DNA of 48,572 bases from Thermoanaerobaculia bacterium (GTDB lineage: Bacteria > Acidobacteriota > Thermoanaerobaculia > Gp7-AA8), in contig JADGNY010000005.1 in the NCBI GenBank assembly GCA_017883235.1, positions 71,180 through 119,751 on the forward strand, written 5' to 3'. Made by a program: the position numbers and the translations under genes. The notes under the pieces were generated by a model. It saw only the letters and a program-made list of their open reading frames with translations, was not told the DNA's origin and ran no database searches. Below, piece by piece: positions 9,613 through 48,373 of the stretch. Numbering within the stretch: position 1 is the stretch's first letter; every line of letters begins with the position of its first letter.

Positions 9613-9819
9613 CACTGTCATCCTGAGCCGCCGGAGCCGCGTAGCGCGAAGCGCGGCGCGGCGCAGGACGGTCGAAGGACCCCCAGACTGGTAACCGGGG
9701 CGGGCGGTGGTTGTCGACGTTCCACCGCCCTGTCCGGGTTATCAAGCTTGGGGTCCTTCGACCGTCCTCCGCCACTCCGCGCTTCGCGCTACAGGCTTCG
9801 GCGGCTCAGGATGACAGTG
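9613..9819. repeat. Palindromic dispersed repeat (GTCATCCTGAGC family)
   Basis: The left end CACTGTCATCCTGAGCCGCC (from 9613) is mirrored exactly at 9800-9819, with an inner GGACGGTCGAAGGACC/GGTCCTTCGACCGTCC pair. About 207 bp, non-coding, filling most of the gap between the amidohydrolase and ansA. A shorter relative lies inside dnaE2 at 19322-19435. Confidence 0.85.
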
Positions 9820-10885: not shown

Positions 10886-11043
10886 GCCGGCACGGCCGGC
10901 AGCGTTGGTTGCCCAAGGCTCGGCCAGCAGTGACGCAGGAACGTTTCTACCGCGCAGGCTCCTAGCGGCCTGCGCGGCAGAACGATAGCGGAAGATGGTG
11001 GCCGAGCCTTGGGCAACCAGCGCAGCCGGGCCGTGCCGGCCTA
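10883..11043. repeat. 161-bp palindromic repeat (GCCGGCACGGCCGGC family), full copy
   Basis: TAGGCCGGCACGG at 10883 is mirrored at 11031-11043, and GGTTGCCCAAGGCTCGGCC has its complement in the right arm, giving a long imperfect hairpin. The left half recurs at 42103-42184. In both copies the repeat begins at the stop codon of a gene. Its right edge abuts the decayed GWxTD gene. Confidence 0.85.
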
Positions 11044-13547: not shown

Positions 13548-13564
13548 GGGTGTGCGACTTCCCC

Positions 13565-14464
13565 ATGGCCGTACACGCTCGCCGTCCCGACACGCAGTTC
13601 CAGCTTCTCGAAGCCCACCAGATCCCCAAATCGCTCGTTTCTCCACAAATGGTGGAGTCCGGCCAGTGCGAAGCCCTCCGCACCCTGCGGGCGAGCCTCG
13701 AGGCGTCGATCGCGGCGAAGCTGACCAGCGGTTCCGAGCTCGTCCGCGCCGTAGCACGCCAACGCCGCGAGGAGATCCTGCCGACGACGATCGAGCCCCT
13801 CGACGCGCTCCTCGGTGGAGGGCTGGCGCGCGGCAAGATGACCGAGCTGGCCGGCCGCGGCACGCGCTTCTCGATCGTCATGGCCACGCTGGCCGCCGCG
13901 ACGAGCATCGGCGAAGCGGCGGCGCTCATCGACGCCGGCGACTCCTTCGATCCGCAGCTCGCCGAGGCCGCGGGGGTCGATCTGCAGAGACTCCTGTGGG
14001 TACGGCCGCGGACGATGAAACAGACGGTGACCGCGGCGGAGATGATCGGCGCCACCGGATTTCAACTCGTCATCATTGATATAGGGTCTCGCCGCCCGCC
14101 CGGACGGCGCGTTCCCGACGCCACATGGGTCCGCCTGGCCCGCGTCGCCGAATCGCACGGGGCAACGATCCTCGTCTCTGCTCCCTACGCCCTGACCGGC
14201 ACGACCTCGGAGGCGATGGTGCTGGCGCACGCACCACGTGCGCGCTGGCTCGGCCACGGAAATTCACCACGCGTGCTGGCCGGCATCGAGACACGGCTGA
14301 CGCTGGAGAAACATCGGCGTCTGCGGCCGGGACAGAGTGCGACGGTGTTTTTTCGGTGTGAAGAGACGGTACCTGGAATCGGGGGTCGGGAGTCGGGGAT
14401 CGGGAGTCGGAGCGTTCTCTCCGACACCCGACTCCCGGCAAGCGACACCCGGAAAGCATCATGA
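13565..14464 (+). CDS. imuA: ImuA-type RecA-like protein of the translesion cassette
   Basis: A 299-residue RecA-fold protein that in characterised systems works with ImuB and DnaE2 in damage-induced mutagenesis. The core reads IEPLDALLGGGLARGKMTELAGRGTRFSI, where the Walker A position lacks the GKT, so ATP binding is doubtful as in other ImuA-like proteins; LVIIDIGSRR is the Walker-B-like strand. ATG 13565 is chosen over an upstream in-frame start at 13550. The last ~30 residues (GIGGRESGIGSR ... SDTRLPASDTRK) are encoded by a palindromic repeat, not by conserved family sequence. The stop overlaps the imuB start (ATGA). Confidence 0.85.
   Translation: MAVHARRPDTQFQLLEAHQIPKSLVSPQMVESGQCEALRTLRASLEASIAAKLTSGSELVRAVARQRREEILPTTIEPLDALLGGGLARGKMTELAGRGTRFSIVMATLAAATSIGEAAALIDAGDSFDPQLAEAAGVDLQRLLWVRPRTMKQTVTAAEMIGATGFQLVIIDIGSRRPPGRRVPDATWVRLARVAESHGATILVSAPYALTGTTSEAMVLAHAPRARWLGHGNSPRVLAGIETRLTLEKHRRLRPGQSATVFFRCEETVPGIGGRESGIGSRSVLSDTRLPASDTRKAS
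14378..14455. repeat. GGGAGTCGGG-family palindrome inside imuA 3' end
   Basis: Left arm GGGGGTCGGGAGTCGGGGAT (from 14381) and right arm CCGACACCCGACTCCCGG (14421-14438) form a hairpin. It is translated as the C-terminal tail of ImuA. Confidence 0.8.
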
Positions 14465-16140
14465 CCCGTCTGGCCTGCTTCTACGTTCCGATGTTCGTGC
14501 TCGCGGCGCGGCTGCGCAGCGAGCCCGATCTGCTCAACGAAGCGGTCGGCATCGTCGAAGGGAACGGCAGCAACGCGCATATCGTCGCGGCGACGCGGCG
14601 GGCGCGGAAGAAGGGAATCCAGCCCGGTCTGTCGCTCGCGCAAGCGCGCTCGCTCCTGCCGAAACTCATCGCCCGAGGCCGCGACTCCGAATGCGAGCGC
14701 ACGGCGCAGGAAGCACTGCTCGAAGTGGCGGAGACGTTTTCGCCGCGCGTCGAAGACGCCGGCGAAGGGCTGGTCTTTCTCGACGTGACGGGGATGGAGA
14801 GGCACTTTGAGGATTTCGGGAGCCGGGAGCCGGGAGTCGGGGGTCGGAGCGACGAAGCAGCAAACGAAGAGACAAACACTCCCCTCTCCGACACCCGACT
14901 CCCGACTGCCGACCCCCGCGCCCCCGAGCTCCGTCTGGCCCGCGCCGCGCTTCGCGCCTGCGATGCCATCTCCCTCCCCGCCCGCGTCGGTATTGCAGGC
15001 AGCAAGCTGGCCGCGCGCGTGGCCGCGGAGCTGCCGAAGTCGCCGACCGTCGTCGCATCGGGCGAAGAGGCGACATTCCTGGCGCCGCTGCCGCTGACAC
15101 GCCTCTCGCCCGAGCTCGAAGCGGCGGCGATGCTGCAACGCTTCGGCCTTTCGTCGATCGGCGACCTTGCCAGGCTTCCCGAAAGCGAGATCGCCAGCCG
15201 TCTCGGCGAGGTCGGGCGCGAGCTGCACTGGGCCGCCCGCGGCATCGATCCCCGCCCGCTCATGCCTCGCCCGCTACCGCCGGAGTTCCGCGAAGGGATG
15301 GAGTTGGAGTGGCCGCTGGTCGCCCTCGAGCCGTTCCTTTTCATCGCCAATGCCGCGCTGGATCGCCTGTCGAAACGGATGGAGATTCAGGGCTTCGCCT
15401 GCAAGCGTCTGGAGTTCACGCTGACTCTCGATCCCGATGGTTACGACGCCCGCGGCATCGATCTCCCGGCGCCGACGCGCGACGTGAAAACGATGCTGAC
15501 GCTGATGCGCCTCGATCTGGAGAAGACGCCGCCCGGCGCGCCGGTGGCCGGCTTCTCATTCGTCGCCCATCCCGACCGCCCGCGGCGCGCGCAGCTCTCG
15601 CTCTTCGGCCCGAGCGCCGTCTCGCCGGAAACGCTGGCGACGACGATCGCAAAACTGATCTCGATCCTCGGCGACGGCCGCGTCGGAATGCCGATGACCG
15701 TCGACGGCCATCTCCCCGAACGCTACGCGATCAATCTCTTTTCCCCTCCCCCGCCGCCCGATGTGCGGCGCACTCCGGCACGCGCCCGCGGTCTCCTGGC
15801 CGTCCGAACGTTCCGCCCGCCGATCCCGATCGAAGTGACGACGCGCGAGGCGGAAGGCGATGACGTGCAGATCGCGACGATCCGAAGTCTTGCGGACGTC
15901 ATCTCCGACACCCGCCCCCCGACTCCCGACTCCCGTCCCCGCGTCGAAGCCGGCAGCAAGGTCGAGATCGCCGGGACGGTCCGCATCTGTTCCGGTCCGT
16001 GGCGGGTGGAGGAAGGGTGGTGGAGCGACCGGCCCGATATCCGGGAGTACTGGGACGTTGAGCTCGAGCGCGGCGGCGTTTATCGCGTCTTCCGCGGCGG
16101 CGCCGCGGAGTGGTTCGTCGATGCCCGATACGAAATGTAG
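14461..16140 (+). CDS. imuB: ImuB-type Y-family polymerase-like protein
   Basis: A 559-residue protein of the DinB/Y-family fold that recruits DnaE2 to the replication clamp in known ImuB systems. The start TRLACFYVPMFVLAARL lacks the Asp of active Y-family polymerases. LVFLDVTGMERHF follows, then a thumb-like part (VGIAGSKLAARVAAEL) and a little-finger-like part with LSLFGPS. It is therefore most likely non-catalytic, as in ImuB. Two stretches are repeat-derived: about residues 120-154 (SREPGVGGRSDEAANEE ... LPTADPR) and about 482-495 (SDTRPPTPDSRPR). Both keep the frame open. Translation is coupled to imuA by ATGA. Confidence 0.87.
   Translation: MTRLACFYVPMFVLAARLRSEPDLLNEAVGIVEGNGSNAHIVAATRRARKKGIQPGLSLAQARSLLPKLIARGRDSECERTAQEALLEVAETFSPRVEDAGEGLVFLDVTGMERHFEDFGSREPGVGGRSDEAANEETNTPLSDTRLPTADPRAPELRLARAALRACDAISLPARVGIAGSKLAARVAAELPKSPTVVASGEEATFLAPLPLTRLSPELEAAAMLQRFGLSSIGDLARLPESEIASRLGEVGRELHWAARGIDPRPLMPRPLPPEFREGMELEWPLVALEPFLFIANAALDRLSKRMEIQGFACKRLEFTLTLDPDGYDARGIDLPAPTRDVKTMLTLMRLDLEKTPPGAPVAGFSFVAHPDRPRRAQLSLFGPSAVSPETLATTIAKLISILGDGRVGMPMTVDGHLPERYAINLFSPPPPPDVRRTPARARGLLAVRTFRPPIPIEVTTREAEGDDVQIATIRSLADVISDTRPPTPDSRPRVEAGSKVEIAGTVRICSGPWRVEEGWWSDRPDIREYWDVELERGGVYRVFRGGAAEWFVDARYEM
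14817..14921. repeat. GGGAGTCGGG-family palindrome inside imuB
   Basis: GGGAGCCGGGAGCCGGGAGT (14818-14837) pairs with the CCGACACCCGACTCCCGACT region (14888-14907). It interrupts the DVTG-to-VGIA region of the polymerase-like fold without breaking the frame. Confidence 0.82.
15903..15945. repeat. Single arm of the GGGAGTCGGG-family repeat inside imuB
   Basis: CCGACACCCGCCCCCCGACT followed by CCCGACTCCCG is one arm only, again in frame, in a linker before the C-terminal GSKVEIAGTVRI segment. Confidence 0.7.
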
Positions 16141-16148
16141 GTGAGCGA

Positions 16149-16496
16149 ATGAAAGACATCCATGGACGTGCGTTCGATTTTGCATGCAGCCTGGTGCGGC
16201 TTCACCGGATGACGACGACAAGCAAAGTGGCTGCGCCGCTGCTGCGCGAGCTGCTGCGCTTCGGCCTCTCGATCGGATCCATTCTCGAAGAAGCGGAATC
16301 GTTCCACGACAAAGCGGATTTCATCGCCCGCTGCCGCGTCTCCCTCCGCGAAGCCCGCAAGACGCTCTACTGGCTGCGGCTCCTCGATGCGACGAAAACG
16401 ATCAAGTCTCCGCGGCTTGCTCCGTTGACGAAAGAGGCGCGGGAGATTGTGGCGTCTTTGTCGGCAATCATCAGAAACGCCAACCTGCCGAAGTGA
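16149..16496 (+). CDS. Four-helix-bundle protein (23S rRNA IVS / S23 type)
   Basis: A 115-residue helical protein of the S23/four-helix-bundle family: IHGRAFDFACSLVRL, LLRELLRFGLSIGSILEEAESFHDKADFIARCRVSLREARKTLYWLRLL. Related proteins are encoded in 23S rRNA intervening sequences, as stand-alone genes and next to retroelement accessory genes; the biochemical role is unclear. ATG 16149 lies 8 nt after the imuB stop with AGGTG upstream. It is co-directional within the operon, between imuB and dnaE2, where no such gene is normally expected. Confidence 0.85.
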   Translation: MKDIHGRAFDFACSLVRLHRMTTTSKVAAPLLRELLRFGLSIGSILEEAESFHDKADFIARCRVSLREARKTLYWLRLLDATKTIKSPRLAPLTKEAREIVASLSAIIRNANLPK

Positions 16497-16515
16497 CTAC
16501 TCAGGGTATTTAACA

Positions 16516-19500
16516 TTGAACATTCAACATTTCCGCCTTCCCGCGGGCGCGCGAAAGGAGCGTGCCCGCAAACGCCCCTGGCACATCGTCAAAGCCCCAC
16601 CCCGCCCCTACGCCGAACTGCGGACCGCCTCCGCCTTTTCCTTCCTCGACGGCGCGAGCCTCCCCGAGGACCTCATTCACACCGCCGCGCAGAAAGACAT
16701 CCCGGCGATGGCGTTGATCGATACGAATGGCGTCTACGGTGCGCCGCGGTTTTATGGAGCGGCCAAGAAAACGGGCGTTCGGGCCATCGTCGGCGCCGAG
16801 GTTGTCGTCGACAACGACCTACCGGTGAAGGGGCTGACGCTCACGAGGATGGATGCGGCGCGGTCGAACGCGCGGGAGATGCGGCTTACGCTCCTCGTCG
16901 AAAGTCATGACGGCTATCGCAATCTCTGCAAGCTCCTCACGGCCGGCGCGCTCGGCCGGCCGAAAGGGGAAGCGCGGTTCACCTGGGACCTCATCGCGCA
17001 GCACGCCGGGGGGCTGCACTGCATCACCGGCGGTGACGAAGGGCCGCTTGTGCATGCACTGCGCAAAGGCGGCATCACCGAGGCGGAAACGGCGTTGCAC
17101 AGGATCAGCGGCATCTTCAGTGGGCGCACGCATATCGAACTGCAACGGCATCATCGCCGCGACGAAGAGCATCGCAACATCGCCCTCGTAGAGCTGGCGC
17201 GCCGTTTCCGGCTACCGATCATCGCCACGAATGGCGTCCGCTATGCGCGTGCCGAGGACAAAGAGCTGCATGACATCGTCACCTGCATCCGCGAAAGGCG
17301 CAATGTCGACAACGCCGGCCGGCTGCTCGGCGTCAATCGCGAGCGGCACATCAAGGATGCCGGCGAGATGGCGGCGCTCTTCGCCGACCTGCCCGAGGCG
17401 CTCGACGGCGCGTGGGAGCTCGCCAATACGCTCGACTTCACGCTGGCGAACCTCGGCTATCGTTTTCCCGACTACCCGCTGCCACCCGGCGAGTCGGCGA
17501 ATTCGTTCCTCCGCAAGATCGCCTGGAACGGCGCCACCATGCGCTTCCGGCCGCTCACTGCCAAAGCGCAGGCGCAGATCGAGAAAGAGCTGGCCACGAT
17601 CGAGAAGCTCGACCTGGCCGGCTACTTCCTCATCGTCTGGGACATCGTTCAGTTCTGCCAGCGCGAGAAGATCCTCGTGCAGGGACGCGGCTCGGCGGCC
17701 AACAGCGCGGTCTGTTACGCGCTCGGCATCACCGCGGTCGATCCCGTTTCGATGGAGTTGCTGTTCGAGCGGTTTCTCTCCGAGGAGCGTGGCGAGTGGC
17801 CGGACATCGACCTCGACCTCCCCTCGGGCGATCAACGCGAGCGCGTCATCCAGCACGTCTACCAAACATACGGCGTGCACGGCTCGGCCATGACCGCGAA
17901 CGTCATCACCTATCGCGACCGTTCGGCGGCGCGCGAGGTCGGCAAGGCGCTCGGCTTCTCACTGGAGCAGGCCGACAAACTCTCCAAGACCCTCGGCACC
18001 TGGAACTTCGGCGAGATCCGCGAGCGCGCCGAAACGATGCCGCGGGAGCTGGAAGCAGCGGGCTTCGATCCCACCGACTTGCGCGTGCAGCACTTCATGC
18101 GCCTGCAGATGCAGATCCAGAATCTGCCGCGCCACCTCGGGCAACACTCCGGCGGGATGGTCATGGCCAAAGGACGGCTCGACGAAGTCGTTCCGCTCGA
18201 ACCGGCGGCGATGCCGGGCCGTGTGGTCATCCAGTGGGACAAGGAAGATTGCGCGGACCTCGGCATCATCAAGGTCGATCTGCTCGGTCTGGGCATGCTG
18301 GCAGCGATCGAGGAGATGATCCCGCTGATCCGCACGAACGAGGGCATCGACGTCGACCTCGCCCATCTGCCGCAGGACGACAAGCGCGTCTACAAAATGC
18401 TCAATGAGGCCGACACGGTGGGCATGTTCCAGGTCGAGAGCCGCGCGCAGATGGCCTCGTTGCCGCGCAATGCGCCGGCGAAGTTCTACGACATCGTCGT
18501 ACAGGTGGCCATCATCCGCCCCGGCCCCATCGTCGGCGGCATGGTCAAGCCGTTCTTCGACCGCCGCCAGGGCAAAGCGCCGCTCGAATACCCGCATCCT
18601 TGTCTCGAGCCGATCCTCCGCCGCACGCTCGGTGTGCCTCTGTTTCAGGAGCAACTGCTGCGCATGGCCATGGTGGCGGCCGACTTCACCGGCGGCGAAG
18701 CGGAGGAGCTGCGGCGGGCCATGGGGTTCAAGCGGTCGATGGAGCGGATGGCCGAAATCGAAACGCGGCTCCGCTCCGGGATGACGAAGAACGGCATCGA
18801 TGGGCCGGCGCAGGATCAGATCGTCAAGTCGATCACCTCGTTCGCACTGTACGGGTTCCCCGAGTCACACGCGGCGAGCTTCGCGCTCATCGCCTACGCC
18901 AGCGCCTATCTGAAAGCGCATCATCCGGCGGCGTTCTACATCGCCCTGATGAACGCCTGGCCGATGGGTTTCTATCATCCGGCCACACTGATCAAGGACG
19001 CGGAACGGCACGGCGTCACGGTGCTTCCGATCGACGTCAGTCACTCCGGCTGGCATTGCCGCTGGGAAAACGGCGGTGTGCGCCTCGGCATGAAATTCGT
19101 GAAGGGACTGCGTGCGTCGGCGGCGGTTTCGATCGAAGCGGCCACGCCATTCCGCGATGCCGACGATCTGGCCATCCGCGCAAACCTGCGCGGCGATCAG
19201 CTCACGAAGCTCGCCTACGCCGGTGCGCTGGCATCCCTCGGCCTGCGTCGCCGCGCGTCACTCTGGCAGGCCGCGCAGGCCGCGAAACCGGCTGGTGAAC
19301 TGTTCGAAGAAACACAAACCCCTGTCATCCTGAGCCGCCGACACCCCGGAGGGGTCGAGGACGGCGAAGGATCCCCGGCTGAAACCGGCAACCGGACATC
19401 CGCGATTTCAGCCGGGGATCGGCTCAGGATGGCAGGCTCGTCCCCGCTTCAGGAAATGTCGCCCGCAGAGGAAACACTCGCCGATTACGCGGCGACCGAC

Positions 19501-19869
19501 CTGACCGCGGGCCCGCACCTGCTCACTCATTTCCGGCCGCAACTGACGCGCGACGGCGTCTACTCGGCGAAACAGTTGAAGAAACTGCCGAACGGGAAAC
19601 GGGTGGCCACCGCCGGCGCGGTCATCGTGCGCCAGCGGCCGGGGACCGCCAAGGGATTCGTCTTCCTGACACTCGAAGATGAAACGGGCATCTCACAGGC
19701 CATTGTGAAGCCCGACCTCTTCCGCGACCATCGCGCGCTGATCGTCGGCTCGCCGGGATTGATCGTCGAGGGGATTCTGCAGAACGAGGATGGACAATGC
19801 TCCGTCCGCGCGGATAAGTTCTGGTCACTCGACGGGGTTGGCGAAGTGGCCAGTCACGACTTCCACTGA
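16516..19869 (+). CDS. dnaE2: Error-prone DNA polymerase III alpha subunit DnaE2
   Basis: About 1117 residues, the catalytic partner of ImuA/ImuB. The PHP domain opens with YAELRTASAFSFLDGAS; the polymerase domain has VQGRGSAANSAVCYALGITAVDP and the catalytic WPDIDLDLPSG; LPRHLGQHSGGMVM and the helix-hairpin-helix part follow; an OB domain (GAVIVRQRPGTAKGFVFLTLEDETG) and the terminal SHDFH are typical of DnaE2 rather than DnaE1. The start is uncertain: TTG 16516 is the only start-type codon in frame just before the PHP domain, while an ATG at 16447 would overlap the preceding gene. A 38-codon palindromic repeat copy is embedded at 19322-19435 before the OB domain. Confidence 0.93.
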   Translation: MNIQHFRLPAGARKERARKRPWHIVKAPPRPYAELRTASAFSFLDGASLPEDLIHTAAQKDIPAMALIDTNGVYGAPRFYGAAKKTGVRAIVGAEVVVDNDLPVKGLTLTRMDAARSNAREMRLTLLVESHDGYRNLCKLLTAGALGRPKGEARFTWDLIAQHAGGLHCITGGDEGPLVHALRKGGITEAETALHRISGIFSGRTHIELQRHHRRDEEHRNIALVELARRFRLPIIATNGVRYARAEDKELHDIVTCIRERRNVDNAGRLLGVNRERHIKDAGEMAALFADLPEALDGAWELANTLDFTLANLGYRFPDYPLPPGESANSFLRKIAWNGATMRFRPLTAKAQAQIEKELATIEKLDLAGYFLIVWDIVQFCQREKILVQGRGSAANSAVCYALGITAVDPVSMELLFERFLSEERGEWPDIDLDLPSGDQRERVIQHVYQTYGVHGSAMTANVITYRDRSAAREVGKALGFSLEQADKLSKTLGTWNFGEIRERAETMPRELEAAGFDPTDLRVQHFMRLQMQIQNLPRHLGQHSGGMVMAKGRLDEVVPLEPAAMPGRVVIQWDKEDCADLGIIKVDLLGLGMLAAIEEMIPLIRTNEGIDVDLAHLPQDDKRVYKMLNEADTVGMFQVESRAQMASLPRNAPAKFYDIVVQVAIIRPGPIVGGMVKPFFDRRQGKAPLEYPHPCLEPILRRTLGVPLFQEQLLRMAMVAADFTGGEAEELRRAMGFKRSMERMAEIETRLRSGMTKNGIDGPAQDQIVKSITSFALYGFPESHAASFALIAYASAYLKAHHPAAFYIALMNAWPMGFYHPATLIKDAERHGVTVLPIDVSHSGWHCRWENGGVRLGMKFVKGLRASAAVSIEAATPFRDADDLAIRANLRGDQLTKLAYAGALASLGLRRRASLWQAAQAAKPAGELFEETQTPVILSRRHPGGVEDGEGSPAETGNRTSAISAGDRLRMAGSSPLQEMSPAEETLADYAATDLTAGPHLLTHFRPQLTRDGVYSAKQLKKLPNGKRVATAGAVIVRQRPGTAKGFVFLTLEDETGISQAIVKPDLFRDHRALIVGSPGLIVEGILQNEDGQCSVRADKFWSLDGVGEVASHDFH
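19322..19435. repeat. GTCATCCTGAGC-family palindrome inside dnaE2
   Basis: CTGTCATCCTGAGCCGCC at 19322 is mirrored by GGCTCAGGATGGCAG at 19421-19435, with an inner 15-bp pair (19370-19384 with 19406-19420). The 114-bp copy is a multiple of three and is read through as about 38 residues in a linker of DnaE2. Confidence 0.85.
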
Positions 19870-41500: not shown

Positions 41501-42105
41501 TGGTGGGCTGGAGCGACACGCAGGTCGTGGCCAGCATCGCTTCCAACGCCACGTCCGGAGTGGCGCAGGTTCTCCAGAACGGCGTGTGGAGCGATACCGT
41601 CAGCCTGACGGTGGTCAGGCCGACTATCACCAGCATCAGTCCGTCGAGCGGCCGCGCGGGAGACCAGATCACCATCACCGGCACCTCCTTCGGAGCGTCG
41701 CAAGGCAGCGGCAACGTCTGGCTTGGCAGCACCTACGGCACGGTGGTGAGCTGGAGCGACACGCAGGTCGTGGCCACCATCGTCTCCGGCGCAACGTCCG
41801 GCGTCGCCCAGATCTACCAGGCCAGCATCTGGAGCAACACCATCAGCCTCACGGTCGTCACCCCGTCGATCACCGGCATCAGCCCGAATCACGGCACGAC
41901 GGGCACGCAGGTCACCATCACCGGCACCGGCTTCGGAACGACGCAAGGCGGCGGCCACGTCTGGCTCGGCAGCACCTACGGCACGGTGGTGAGCTGGAGC
42001 GACACGCAGGTCGTCGCCAGCGTGGCATCGGGCGCCTCCGGCGGCGTCGCGCAGATCCTCCAGAACGGCGTCTGGAGCAACACCATCAGCTTCAGCGTCC
42101 CCTAG
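38530..42105 (+). CDS. Secreted SBBP beta-propeller protein with six IPT/TIG repeats
   Basis: A 1191-residue exported protein. The TTG start at 38530 follows a GAGGAG site by 6 nt and gives a signal peptide (SSRFVCVLAAAVMFAAVFPASALT). The next ~230 residues (LTFEINNGQTDPAVKFLSRGKGYSLFL ... KSNYFIGDDPKKWHADVPNYAKVR) are the module shared with the protein at 20121-22484; about eight SBBP repeats follow (IAVDSSGNAYVTGxxxSTxFPG). From about residue 705 there are six IPT/TIG immunoglobulin-like repeats of 81 residues (ITSISPSxGxxGDQITITGTxFG ... SLTVV). The last repeat ends the protein, with no anchor. Adhesion or scaffold roles are guesses; function unknown. Confidence 0.9.
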   Translation: MSHSSRFVCVLAAAVMFAAVFPASALTPAAHGSLAGAYGKLPLTFEINNGQTDPAVKFLSRGKGYSLFLTPAGATLRLNGRNETSVVRWQTVGGNRNPLMMGVDPLATKSNYFIGDDPKKWHADVPNYAKVRAERVYPGIDLVYHGNRRQVEYDFVVAPKANPNRIRLAFKGIESMRIGEHGDLILHTANGDLMQPRPLVYQEIDGKRQVIEGSYALLPKNEVGFALGQYDRNRQLTIDPVLLYSTFLGDTDLDECLAIAVDSSGNAYLTGLVASTSFPGVTGSSIQPSNGFDYDAFVTKINAVGTAIVYSTFLGGNGGNEYGLGITVDSSGNAYITGATNSTNFPGTSGSSIQSSFGGGVRDSFATKINAAGSAIVYSTYLGGSDDDLAWGIAVDSSGNAYVAGDTGSSTFPGVTGSSIEPTNNGGAFVTKINAAGTATVYSTFFGGTAGASLASIAVDSSGNAYVGGYTGSSGFPGISGSSLQSTFAGGGGDGIISKINATGTAIVWSTYLGDTGFDEIAGIKIDGAGDIYVAGNTDSTSFPGVTGSSIQSSNAGDHDAFVTKINGAGTAIVYSTFVGGNDLDVVSYGAFAIDSSGNAYVGGGTLSTTFAGITGSSIQPSNAGSSDAFITRINAAGTAFDFSTFLGGAGDETIAGIATDGSGNVYVAGYSSSTDFPVTAGSIQTTYGGGDVDGFVVKIGPPGSPVISSISPSTGRTGDQITITGTGFDNVQGSGNVWLGSNYAGSVVSWSNTQVVATIASGVSSGVAQIYQSGVWSNTASLTVVTPHITSISPSSGYPGDQITITGTGFGSSQGSGNVWLGSTYGTVVSWSDTQVVASIASNATSGVAQILQNGVWSNTVSLTVVRPTITSISPSTGRAGDQITITGTSFGSTQGSGNVWLGSTYGTVVSWSNTQVVATIVSGATSGVAQIYQNSIWSNTLSLTVVTPHITSISPSNGYPADQITITGTGFGSTKGSGNVWLGSTYGTVVGWSDTQVVASIASNATSGVAQVLQNGVWSDTVSLTVVRPTITSISPSSGRAGDQITITGTSFGASQGSGNVWLGSTYGTVVSWSDTQVVATIVSGATSGVAQIYQASIWSNTISLTVVTPSITGISPNHGTTGTQVTITGTGFGTTQGGGHVWLGSTYGTVVSWSDTQVVASVASGASGGVAQILQNGVWSNTISFSVP
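40645..42105 (+). repeat. Six tandem 243-bp coding repeats (IPT domains)
   Basis: Units begin near 40645, 40891, 41134, 41377, 41620 and 41863; the first carries one extra codon. Units 2 and 4 and units 3 and 5 are most alike (GYPxDQ ... LQNGVWS versus GRAGDQ ... IYQxSIWS), with alternating VVTPHI/VVRPTI joints, so the array grew by duplication of a two-domain, 486-bp block. Confidence 0.88.
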
Positions 42106-42184
42106 CCGGCACGGCCGGCAGCGTTGGTTGCCCAAGGCTCGGCCAGCAGTGACGCAGGAACGTTTCTACCGCGCAGGCTCCTAG
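42103..42184. repeat. GCCGGCACGGCCGGC-family repeat, left half only
   Basis: Nearly identical to 10883-10965, beginning at the stop codon TAG of the SBBP/IPT gene and ending at CAGGCTCCTAG, the midpoint of the full element at 10883-11043. Confidence 0.85.
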
Positions 42185-42518: not shown

Positions 42519-43382
42519 ATGCATCGATTCCGCTCGTTCCTGGCTCTCGTTCTACTCGCCTTCTCCATCCCCGCGCTCGCTGCCGGCGGCAAGGTCGACG
42601 GCTCGCTCACCGCGAACGGCAAGACGTTCGCGCTCAAACATGCATACGCGCAGACGAAGAAAGATCCGTTCGACAAGAAGAAGAGCGTGATCGAGGTGAT
42701 CGTCACCGATCAGGAGCTCTCCCCTGCCGCTGCCTCCGACGAGTTCGAGCTCATGAAGGCGCAGGACAAGCAGCAACTGAGCGGCTTCACGGCCACGATC
42801 GACGCCGACAAGGCGGTCATCAGCGCCACCGTCTTCAGCCCCGCCTTCAAGAAGATGAAGCAGTTCTCCGGCGTCGGGATGCAGAAGGCAGACCTGACGG
42901 CGATGACCGGCGAGCGCATCGCCGGCTCGATCACGATGGCCAAGCCGGACGACTTCTTCGATGAGAAGTATCAGTACAACGCTACGTTCGATCTTCCCGT
43001 CGGCAAGCCCGCCGGTCCCCCGCCACCGTCCGTCCTGAAGGGGACACCGCTCCCCGCCGGCGGCGGCGAGCCCGGCAAGGCGTACATGGCCTACCTCAAG
43101 ATCCTCGCCGGCGGCGACATGAAGGCCTTCCTCGGCAGCGTCGCCGCGGCGCGCGCAAAAGATGCGTCATCCGATCCCGACTTCAAGAAGATGTTCCCAC
43201 TCATTCAGGCGATGCAGTCGAAGGACATCAAAGTCACCGGCGGCGCCATCGACGGCAACCACGCCACCCTCCTGGCAACAGGAAAGGACGACGACCAGGT
43301 TTCCAACGGCACCATTACCATGGTCAAAGAAGGCGGCGCATGGAAAGTGGAGAAAGAGGCGTGGAAGACGAGTAGCGAATAG
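42519..43382 (+). CDS. Secreted hypothetical protein, two-domain
   Basis: A 287-residue exported protein. MHRFRSFLALVLLAFSIPALAAGG is a signal peptide; GGAGG about 11 nt before ATG 42519 is its ribosome site. The first domain (GSLTANGKTFALKHAYAQTKKDPFDKKKSVIEVIVTDQEL) is a pattern I associate with secreted proteins of Acidobacteriota and relatives; a PPPP linker leads to a second domain (MAYLKILAGGDMKAFLGSVAA ... HATLLATGKDDDQVSNGTITMVKEGGAWKVEKEAW) that looks like a DUF4878/NTF2-like fold. No catalytic residues are evident. It is monocistronic, followed by a minisatellite. Confidence 0.78.
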   Translation: MHRFRSFLALVLLAFSIPALAAGGKVDGSLTANGKTFALKHAYAQTKKDPFDKKKSVIEVIVTDQELSPAAASDEFELMKAQDKQQLSGFTATIDADKAVISATVFSPAFKKMKQFSGVGMQKADLTAMTGERIAGSITMAKPDDFFDEKYQYNATFDLPVGKPAGPPPPSVLKGTPLPAGGGEPGKAYMAYLKILAGGDMKAFLGSVAAARAKDASSDPDFKKMFPLIQAMQSKDIKVTGGAIDGNHATLLATGKDDDQVSNGTITMVKEGGAWKVEKEAWKTSSE

Positions 43383-43413
43383 CGGTGAGTCTCGACGAAA
43401 CAGAGTCGTGCTC

Positions 43414-44119
43414 GATGCCGCTCGGCGCCGGCTCCGATGCCGGGTAGTGCCGGCTCGATGCCGGGAAGCGCCGGCTCGATGCCGGGAGTCCCGGCTCGAT
43501 GCCGGGAAGCGCCGACTCGATGCCGCGTAGCGCCGGCTCGATGCCGCGTAGCGCCGGCTCGATGCCGGGAAGCGCCGTCCCGATGCCGGGAGGCGCCGGC
43601 TCGGTGCCGGGAGGCGCCGGCTCGGTGCCGGGTAGCGCCGGCTCGGTGCCGGGTAGCGCCGCCTCGATGCCGGGTAGCGCCGGCTCGATGCCGGGTAGTT
43701 CCGGCTCGATGCCGGGTAGCTCCGGCTCGATGCCGGGTAGCGCCGGCTCGATGCCGGGTAGTTCCGGCTCGATGCCGGGTAGCTCCGGCTCAATGGCGGG
43801 TAGCCCCGGCTCGATGCCGGACAGCGCCGGTTCGAGGCCGGGCAGCTTCGACTTGAGGCCGGACGGCCCCGACACAAGGCCGGACGGCCCCGACACGAGG
43901 CCGGACGGCCCCGACACAAGGCCGGACGGCCCCGACACAAGGCCGGACGGCCCCGGCACGAAGCCGGACGGCCCCGACACGAGGCCGGACGGCCCCGACA
44001 CAAGGCCGGACGGCCCCGACACGAAGCCGGACGGCCCCGACACGAAGCCGGACGGCCCCGACACGAAGCCGGACGGCCCCGACACGAAGCCGGACGGCCC
44101 CGACACGAGGCCGGACTGA
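43414..44119. repeat. 21-bp minisatellite, about 34 units
   Basis: Units of the form GATGCCGGGTAGCGCCGGCTC change through intermediate units near 43820-43860 into GAGGCCGGACGGCCCCGACAC, so it is one array with two sub-families. Both unit types contain a short palindrome (GCCGG...CCGGC, GGCCGGACGGCC). Around 43660-43790 a three-unit block (AGCGCC, AGTTCC, AGCTCC variants) is itself duplicated. Because 21 is a multiple of three, several frames on both strands stay open (heptads such as MPGSAGS or PDGPDTK), but none has a ribosome site or other protein features. Confidence 0.92.
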
Positions 44120-44237
44120 AAAGTGGGGCGCGTTCCAGGAAAACTTCTCGAAAGCGACAGGAGGCCGCGCAGTGGTCAGCACGCTGCATTCCCCGCCCGA
44201 GCCGCGCGCCGGAGCGTACGTCCGTAGCGGAAACCAG

Positions 44238-48267: not shown

Positions 48268-48373
48268 CGGGAGTCGGGAGCCGGGAGTCGGGGGTCGGAG
48301 AGGAGGCGGCTCGCTGACTGGTGCCGGGCCGATACCGCATCTCCGACCCCCGACCCCCGACTCCCGACTCCCG
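48268..48373. repeat. GGGAGTCGGG-family palindrome, intergenic copy
   Basis: GGGAGTCGGGAGCCGGGAGT and GGGGGTCGGAG (48269-48300) are mirrored by CTCCGACCCCCGACCCCCGA and CTCCCGACTCCCG (48341-48373). The same family occurs inside imuA and imuB. It lies between dnaK and the divergent Bax-inhibitor gene. Confidence 0.85.

Follow-up and report, generated by a model that had tools for sequence, protein, structure and literature searches.

Hairpin-forming repeats inserted in frame in a mutasome operon of Thermoanaerobaculia are probably tolerated as disordered neutral linkers

Results

Repeat elements within imuA, imuB and dnaE2

The window analysed here is a 48,572-nt stretch of the genome of a soil Thermoanaerobaculia bacterium (G000), whose nearest named relatives are Acidobacteriota/Thermoanaerobaculia metagenome-assembled genomes. 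It contains a mutasome operon (Table 1) in which imuA, coding for a RecA-like protein, overlaps imuB (IMS) by the sequence ATGA and dnaE2, for the error-prone polymerase, follows; the dnaE2 start is that given by our own gene finder, with homology from ~16594. Between imuB and dnaE2 is a gene of the PF05635 family (23S rRNA-intervening/four-helix bundle), possibly a fourth operon member. Similar genes (42-97% identity) accompany the mutasome in G001, G005, G007, G009, G012, G015 and G016; in G002 no such gene was found.

Table 1. Genes and repeat elements in the window.
Feature	Positions	Strand	Details
imuA (RecA-like)	13550..14464	+	PF00154, E 4e-10; partial match to NCBIfam ImuA model
imuB (IMS)	14461..16140	+	PF00817, E 1e-19
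PF05635 gene, 115 aa	16149..16496	+	9-bp gap to imuB, ~20-bp gap to dnaE2
dnaE2 (error-prone polymerase)	16516..19869	+	PRK05672 error-prone DNA polymerase, 1202 bits
Family A, two-armed, ImuA C-terminal tail (GIGGRESGIGSRSVLSDTRLPASDTR)	14378..14454	+	arms ~14380-14412 and ~14418-14454; fold z -4.7
Family A, two-armed, ImuB loop 1 (after MERHF)	14814..14926	+	arms 14817-14849 and 14886-14918; inverted repeat I21
Half family A (right arm only), ImuB linker 2 (SDTRPPTPDSRP)	15899..15943	+	sequence
Family B palindrome, 110 bp, DnaE2 linker between helix-hairpin-helix and OB domains	19324..19433	+	fold z -6.5
Intergenic family A copy (reference)	48268..48373	+	inverted repeat I6, 39-nt arms, 90%
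Intergenic family B copy (reference)	9617..9815	+	GTCATCCTGAGC at 9617, GCTCAGGATGAC at 9804; inverted repeat I2
Family D repeat, 80 nt, two copies 31 kb apart	10886..10965 and 42105..42184		100% identical
Tandem array, ~25 copies of a 21-bp unit	43379..44134		inside an ORF without Pfam match

Family A consists of two convergent, inverted arrays, each of about four units of the heptamer GGGAGTC (with variants GGGAGCC and GGGGGTC), and family B is a palindrome of the type GTCATCCTGAGC...GCTCAGGATG. Examination of the sequence confirmed the original prediction that such repeats lie in frame in the C-terminus of imuA, in two loops of imuB and in the pre-OB linker of dnaE2. The intergenic copies that had been reported alongside them also exist, with the positions given for them (9613 and 48268) off by 4 and 1 nt, respectively. 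Single-strand folds of the copies were much stronger than those of shuffled sequence (z -4.2 to -8.5), and a search against Rfam gave no match anywhere in the window. The window also holds a family D repeat and a 21-bp tandem array (Table 1).

Empty, filled and re-filled sites in relatives

We compared the insert-bearing genes, where found, with those of two congeners (G001 and G002) and 15 further genomes of the same family. The A and B elements are common to G000 and G001, and alignment of imuB and dnaE2 showed a presence/absence pattern, with most same-family sites empty. The DnaE2 insert is present in G000 and G001, and the site is cleanly empty in G002 and most of the family, with just 24 bp from GELFE to SPL in G002 and G016; ImuB loop 1 is likewise empty in most same-family genomes, G016 having just 15 bp from MERHF to LAKAAIR. 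The ImuA tail is variable or missing in relatives. Measured against a congener's empty site, the insert lengthens DnaE2 by 108 bp, or 36 codons, rather than the 114 bp and 38 codons originally proposed, and all measurable differences in orthologous spans between fixed protein anchors were multiples of 3.

Some of these sites are occupied by other, unrelated families. The ImuB loop carries a GTAG-type palindrome (family E) in G002, other heptamers in G010 and a family C palindrome of the GGCACAGACA...TGTCTGTGCC type in G006. In DnaE2 there are arrays of (CACTCAG)n and of (ATGCAGA)n in G005 and G014, and heptamers in G010. In threonine synthase (ThrC) of G002, an E palindrome stands at the site with the right A arm (CTCCCGACTCCCG) remaining beside it, an arrangement indicating that one repeat is nested in, or has replaced part of, another. 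The overall pattern indicates lineage-specific insertions, with the same sites reused by different families.

Predicted disorder and relaxed selection

That the inserts would behave as neutral, disordered linkers found support in both structure models and codon changes. In the AlphaFold model of ImuB, pLDDT falls below 50 at residues 124-149, which covers most, not all, of insert 1 (~ residues 119-151), and at 480-487 and 490-499 (insert 2), as well as at 377-385 and 436-445 outside the inserts. For DnaE2 (1091 residues modelled), the sole stretches listed with pLDDT<50, 905-939 and 941-946, correspond to the insert.

Codon changes between G000 and G001 were pooled for ImuA, ImuB, DnaE2 and ThrC and evaluated by Fisher tests. 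Changes at codon positions 1:2:3 were 47:22:43 in the inserts versus 198:127:778 in the rest of the genes (P 3e-11), and synonymous:nonsynonymous codons were 20:54 versus 669:244 (P 3e-15). These ratios indicate that purifying selection acts on the host genes, whereas the inserts evolve without amino-acid constraint. From frame keeping, together with purifying selection on the flanks, we infer that the inserts are translated.

Genome-wide distribution and host genes

The repeats are abundant in the genome: the 14-mer GGGAGTCGGGRGTC gave 229 matches versus 0 for its reversed control, and GTCATCCTGAGC gave 67 versus 1. Overlap with genes was assessed in 1.56 of the 6.92 Mb (22%) of this fragmented assembly (246 contigs), in which a simple hexamer gene finder called 1378 genes (83% coding); the sampled contigs were largely those first met in repeat searches, so that repeat density may be overestimated, with little effect on the coding/intergenic split. 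Using 13 seed groups and counting an element only with at least four seeds, we found 402 strong elements, compared to 2 with reversed seeds; single 12-mer matches in genes were dismissed as chance. Though the sample is 83% coding, 346 of the 402 elements were intergenic and only 20 lay within genes, so that there is either strong selection against insertion into coding DNA or avoidance of it. Family A was over-represented in genes (10/46, versus 10/356 for the other families in this sample; P 1e-5). Stop-free frames are insufficient as the cause of this excess, because families R2 and R11, with on average 4.93 and 5.0 open frames of six, are similarly open to family A (5.15).

Around 16 genes in the sample are hosts, and about a dozen besides the mutasome genes carry in-frame copies. 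Outside the operon these include threonine synthase, maltooligosyltrehalose synthase, glycogen debranching enzyme, an M56 peptidase, TilS, 2-oxoglutarate dehydrogenase (OGDH), an HI0933-like oxidoreductase, NuoCD, a NadD-like nucleotidyltransferase, a sulfatase and an AddB-like PD-(D/E)XK nuclease with four elements from four families, names finer than the Pfam family coming from our reading of the sequences. The replicative polymerase DnaE1 was picked as a control blind to inserts, whereas AddB and ThrC were picked for having them. In G000, DnaE1 (L308, contig C65; split across two contigs and outside the 1.56-Mb sample) has an in-frame E element in the linker that follows the helix-hairpin-helix region, and an A element later in the gene; in DnaE1 of G002 (L295, contig C73) the GTAG palindrome E likewise lies in frame within a linker, with an A-type segment later in the gene, and that of G011 has repeats and a B-type segment. 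The view that other long genes lack the repeats thus holds within the window, but not in the genome.

Within 5.3 kb of coding sequence the operon holds 4 elements (P about 0.001 under uniform scatter), a density reached at two places, the operon itself and the AddB-like gene. It is locally dense, not uniquely so, and the idea of a concentration in a mutagenesis operon did not stand, as metabolic and essential-type genes are hosts too. Sites differ in tolerance, and the mutasome is not unique.

Comparison with known repeat systems

Rickettsia palindromic elements (RPE) are described as palindromes of ~100-150 bp in several families, found between genes and in frame within unrelated conserved genes, and regarded as neutral or slightly deleterious (PMC2229807, PMC10969869). 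The palindromic repeats studied here similarly occur both between genes and in frame within them, and are missing from most orthologues, as for recent insertions; they differ in sequence and phylum, and family A is made of heptamer arrays. The proposed resemblance to RPE, with in-frame palindromes in tails and linkers, was upheld, the segments being absent at the protein level from most homologues. By inspection of copies, neither the CGTC end tag of RPE-4/6 nor a GTAG tag is present on families A and B.

Repetitive extragenic palindromes (REPs) tagged with GTAG or CGTC have been noted in genes for DNA synthesis and repair, dnaE2 among them, and in dnaE of R. conorii, with the speculation that REP-tagged repair genes may act as mutators (Di Nocera 2013; PMC3733652); in the part compared, Acidobacteriota are not among the hosts listed for GTAG repeats, which are Proteobacteria, Cyanobacteria, Chloroflexi and the PVC group. 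The E palindrome found in DnaE1, ImuB and ThrC starts with GTAG, forms a hairpin and occurs in inverted pairs (GTAGGTCGGACTCTC; 42 sites in G000 and 92 in G002, many paired +/-), and is, by sequence, a GTAG-type REP. G000 has nine Y1_Tnp matches, some with C or R1 repeats nearby. Such C or R1 palindromes neighbour the partial, RAYT-like Y1_Tnp genes L225, L226 and L227, which suggests that these two families are RAYT-mobilised REPs. No E-type hairpin was found within 1.5 kb of Y1_Tnp genes in G000, and a RAYT link for family A was rejected, there being no A copy within 1.5 kb of any of the nine.

Family A has the typical features of the G-quadruplex (G4)-forming GGGNATC heptamers known from Xanthomonas and Nostoc (Rehm 2015; PMC4692102). 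Those arrays have a mode of four units and are mostly intergenic; in Xanthomonas they are often in inverted pairs, and 7-11% are intragenic. Family A likewise comprises G-rich heptamer arrays with a mode of four units (four perfect units in 39/92 arms) and frequent inverted pairs (32/46, both in the 1.56-Mb sample), but its unit is GGGAGTC with variants rather than GGGNATC, and 10/46 copies are intragenic. G-quadruplex formation by family A is predicted at the level of the motif. The compared portions of the RPE, GTAG REP and heptamer-repeat papers report no case in Acidobacteriota, and our literature search turned up Di Nocera 2013 alone for repeats in dnaE2 and nothing for imuB.

Discussion

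The segments within imuA, imuB and dnaE2 are, very probably, dispersed hairpin-forming repeats inserted in coding sequence and tolerated as disordered neutral linkers. About a dozen abundant repeat families in the genome would insert into coding sequence and most such insertions would be purged, the survivors being those that keep the frame, have no stop in the host frame and are placed in loops, linkers or tails. On translation the surviving inserts would give disordered peptides, whose sequence would from then on be free to drift, with the imuA/imuB/dnaE2 operon as one tolerant host among many and full-length, insert-bearing proteins presumably made and active. The GTAG palindrome E may move by RAYT-type transposition, and heptamer family A may spread where replication slips or switches template at G4/hairpin arrays. 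Selfish or structure-prone DNA akin to Rickettsia palindromes or REPs is the best reading of what was observed here: dispersed copies that are lineage-specific, keep the frame, lie in regions of predicted disorder, are under relaxed selection, have many hosts and re-use the same sites.

Repair and replication genes might instead be preferentially hit, with insertions changing their activity in a mutator or adaptive manner. Repair genes (imuA, imuB, dnaE2 and addB-like) do make up 4 of the ~16 sample hosts, DnaE1, outside the sample, has two elements, and many REP-tagged repair genes, dnaE2 among them, were noted by Di Nocera et al. (PMC3733652); yet three of the four repair hosts are the operon that prompted the study, the other hosts are mainly metabolic, and the inserts, in regions of predicted disorder, have no amino-acid constraint. 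We consider this explanation unlikely, though there may be a modest repair-gene bias, hosts having been classed by function within the sample only. It also seems improbable that repeats independently and repeatedly enter the same linkers of DnaE2, ImuB, AddB-like and DnaE1 proteins across the family through repair/replication-coupled insertion or a linker-length effect on polymerase fidelity. A role at the RNA level, in which G4 or hairpin structures adjust either the translational coupling or the stability of the imuA-imuB-dnaE2 message, would accord with the strong predicted folds, with the ImuA-tail copy ending about 7 nt upstream of the imuB start and with a four-G-tract motif in 42/46 sampled A copies. 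Element positions and families nevertheless vary among relatives, most of which have no element there, and the same elements are present in unrelated genes, making such a role very improbable.

Since the same repeats occur in many other genes, they are best viewed as tolerated clutter of a known kind, not a speciality of the mutagenesis operon. REP-tagged dnaE2 and other repair genes have been known since 2013 (PMC3733652); what is new is the phylum, the same-site turnover including nested insertion, and the direct neutrality test. Annotators should be alert to translated repeats in the form of peptides like SGVGSRESGVG...SDTRLPTPDSRLP. Our analysis extends protein-coding palindromes to a little-studied class of Acidobacteriota and provides a natural replicate of the older claim that the presence of repeats in repair genes is no accident. 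Because sites in relatives may be empty, filled or re-filled, neutrality can be tested directly, and the outcome favours tolerance over function.
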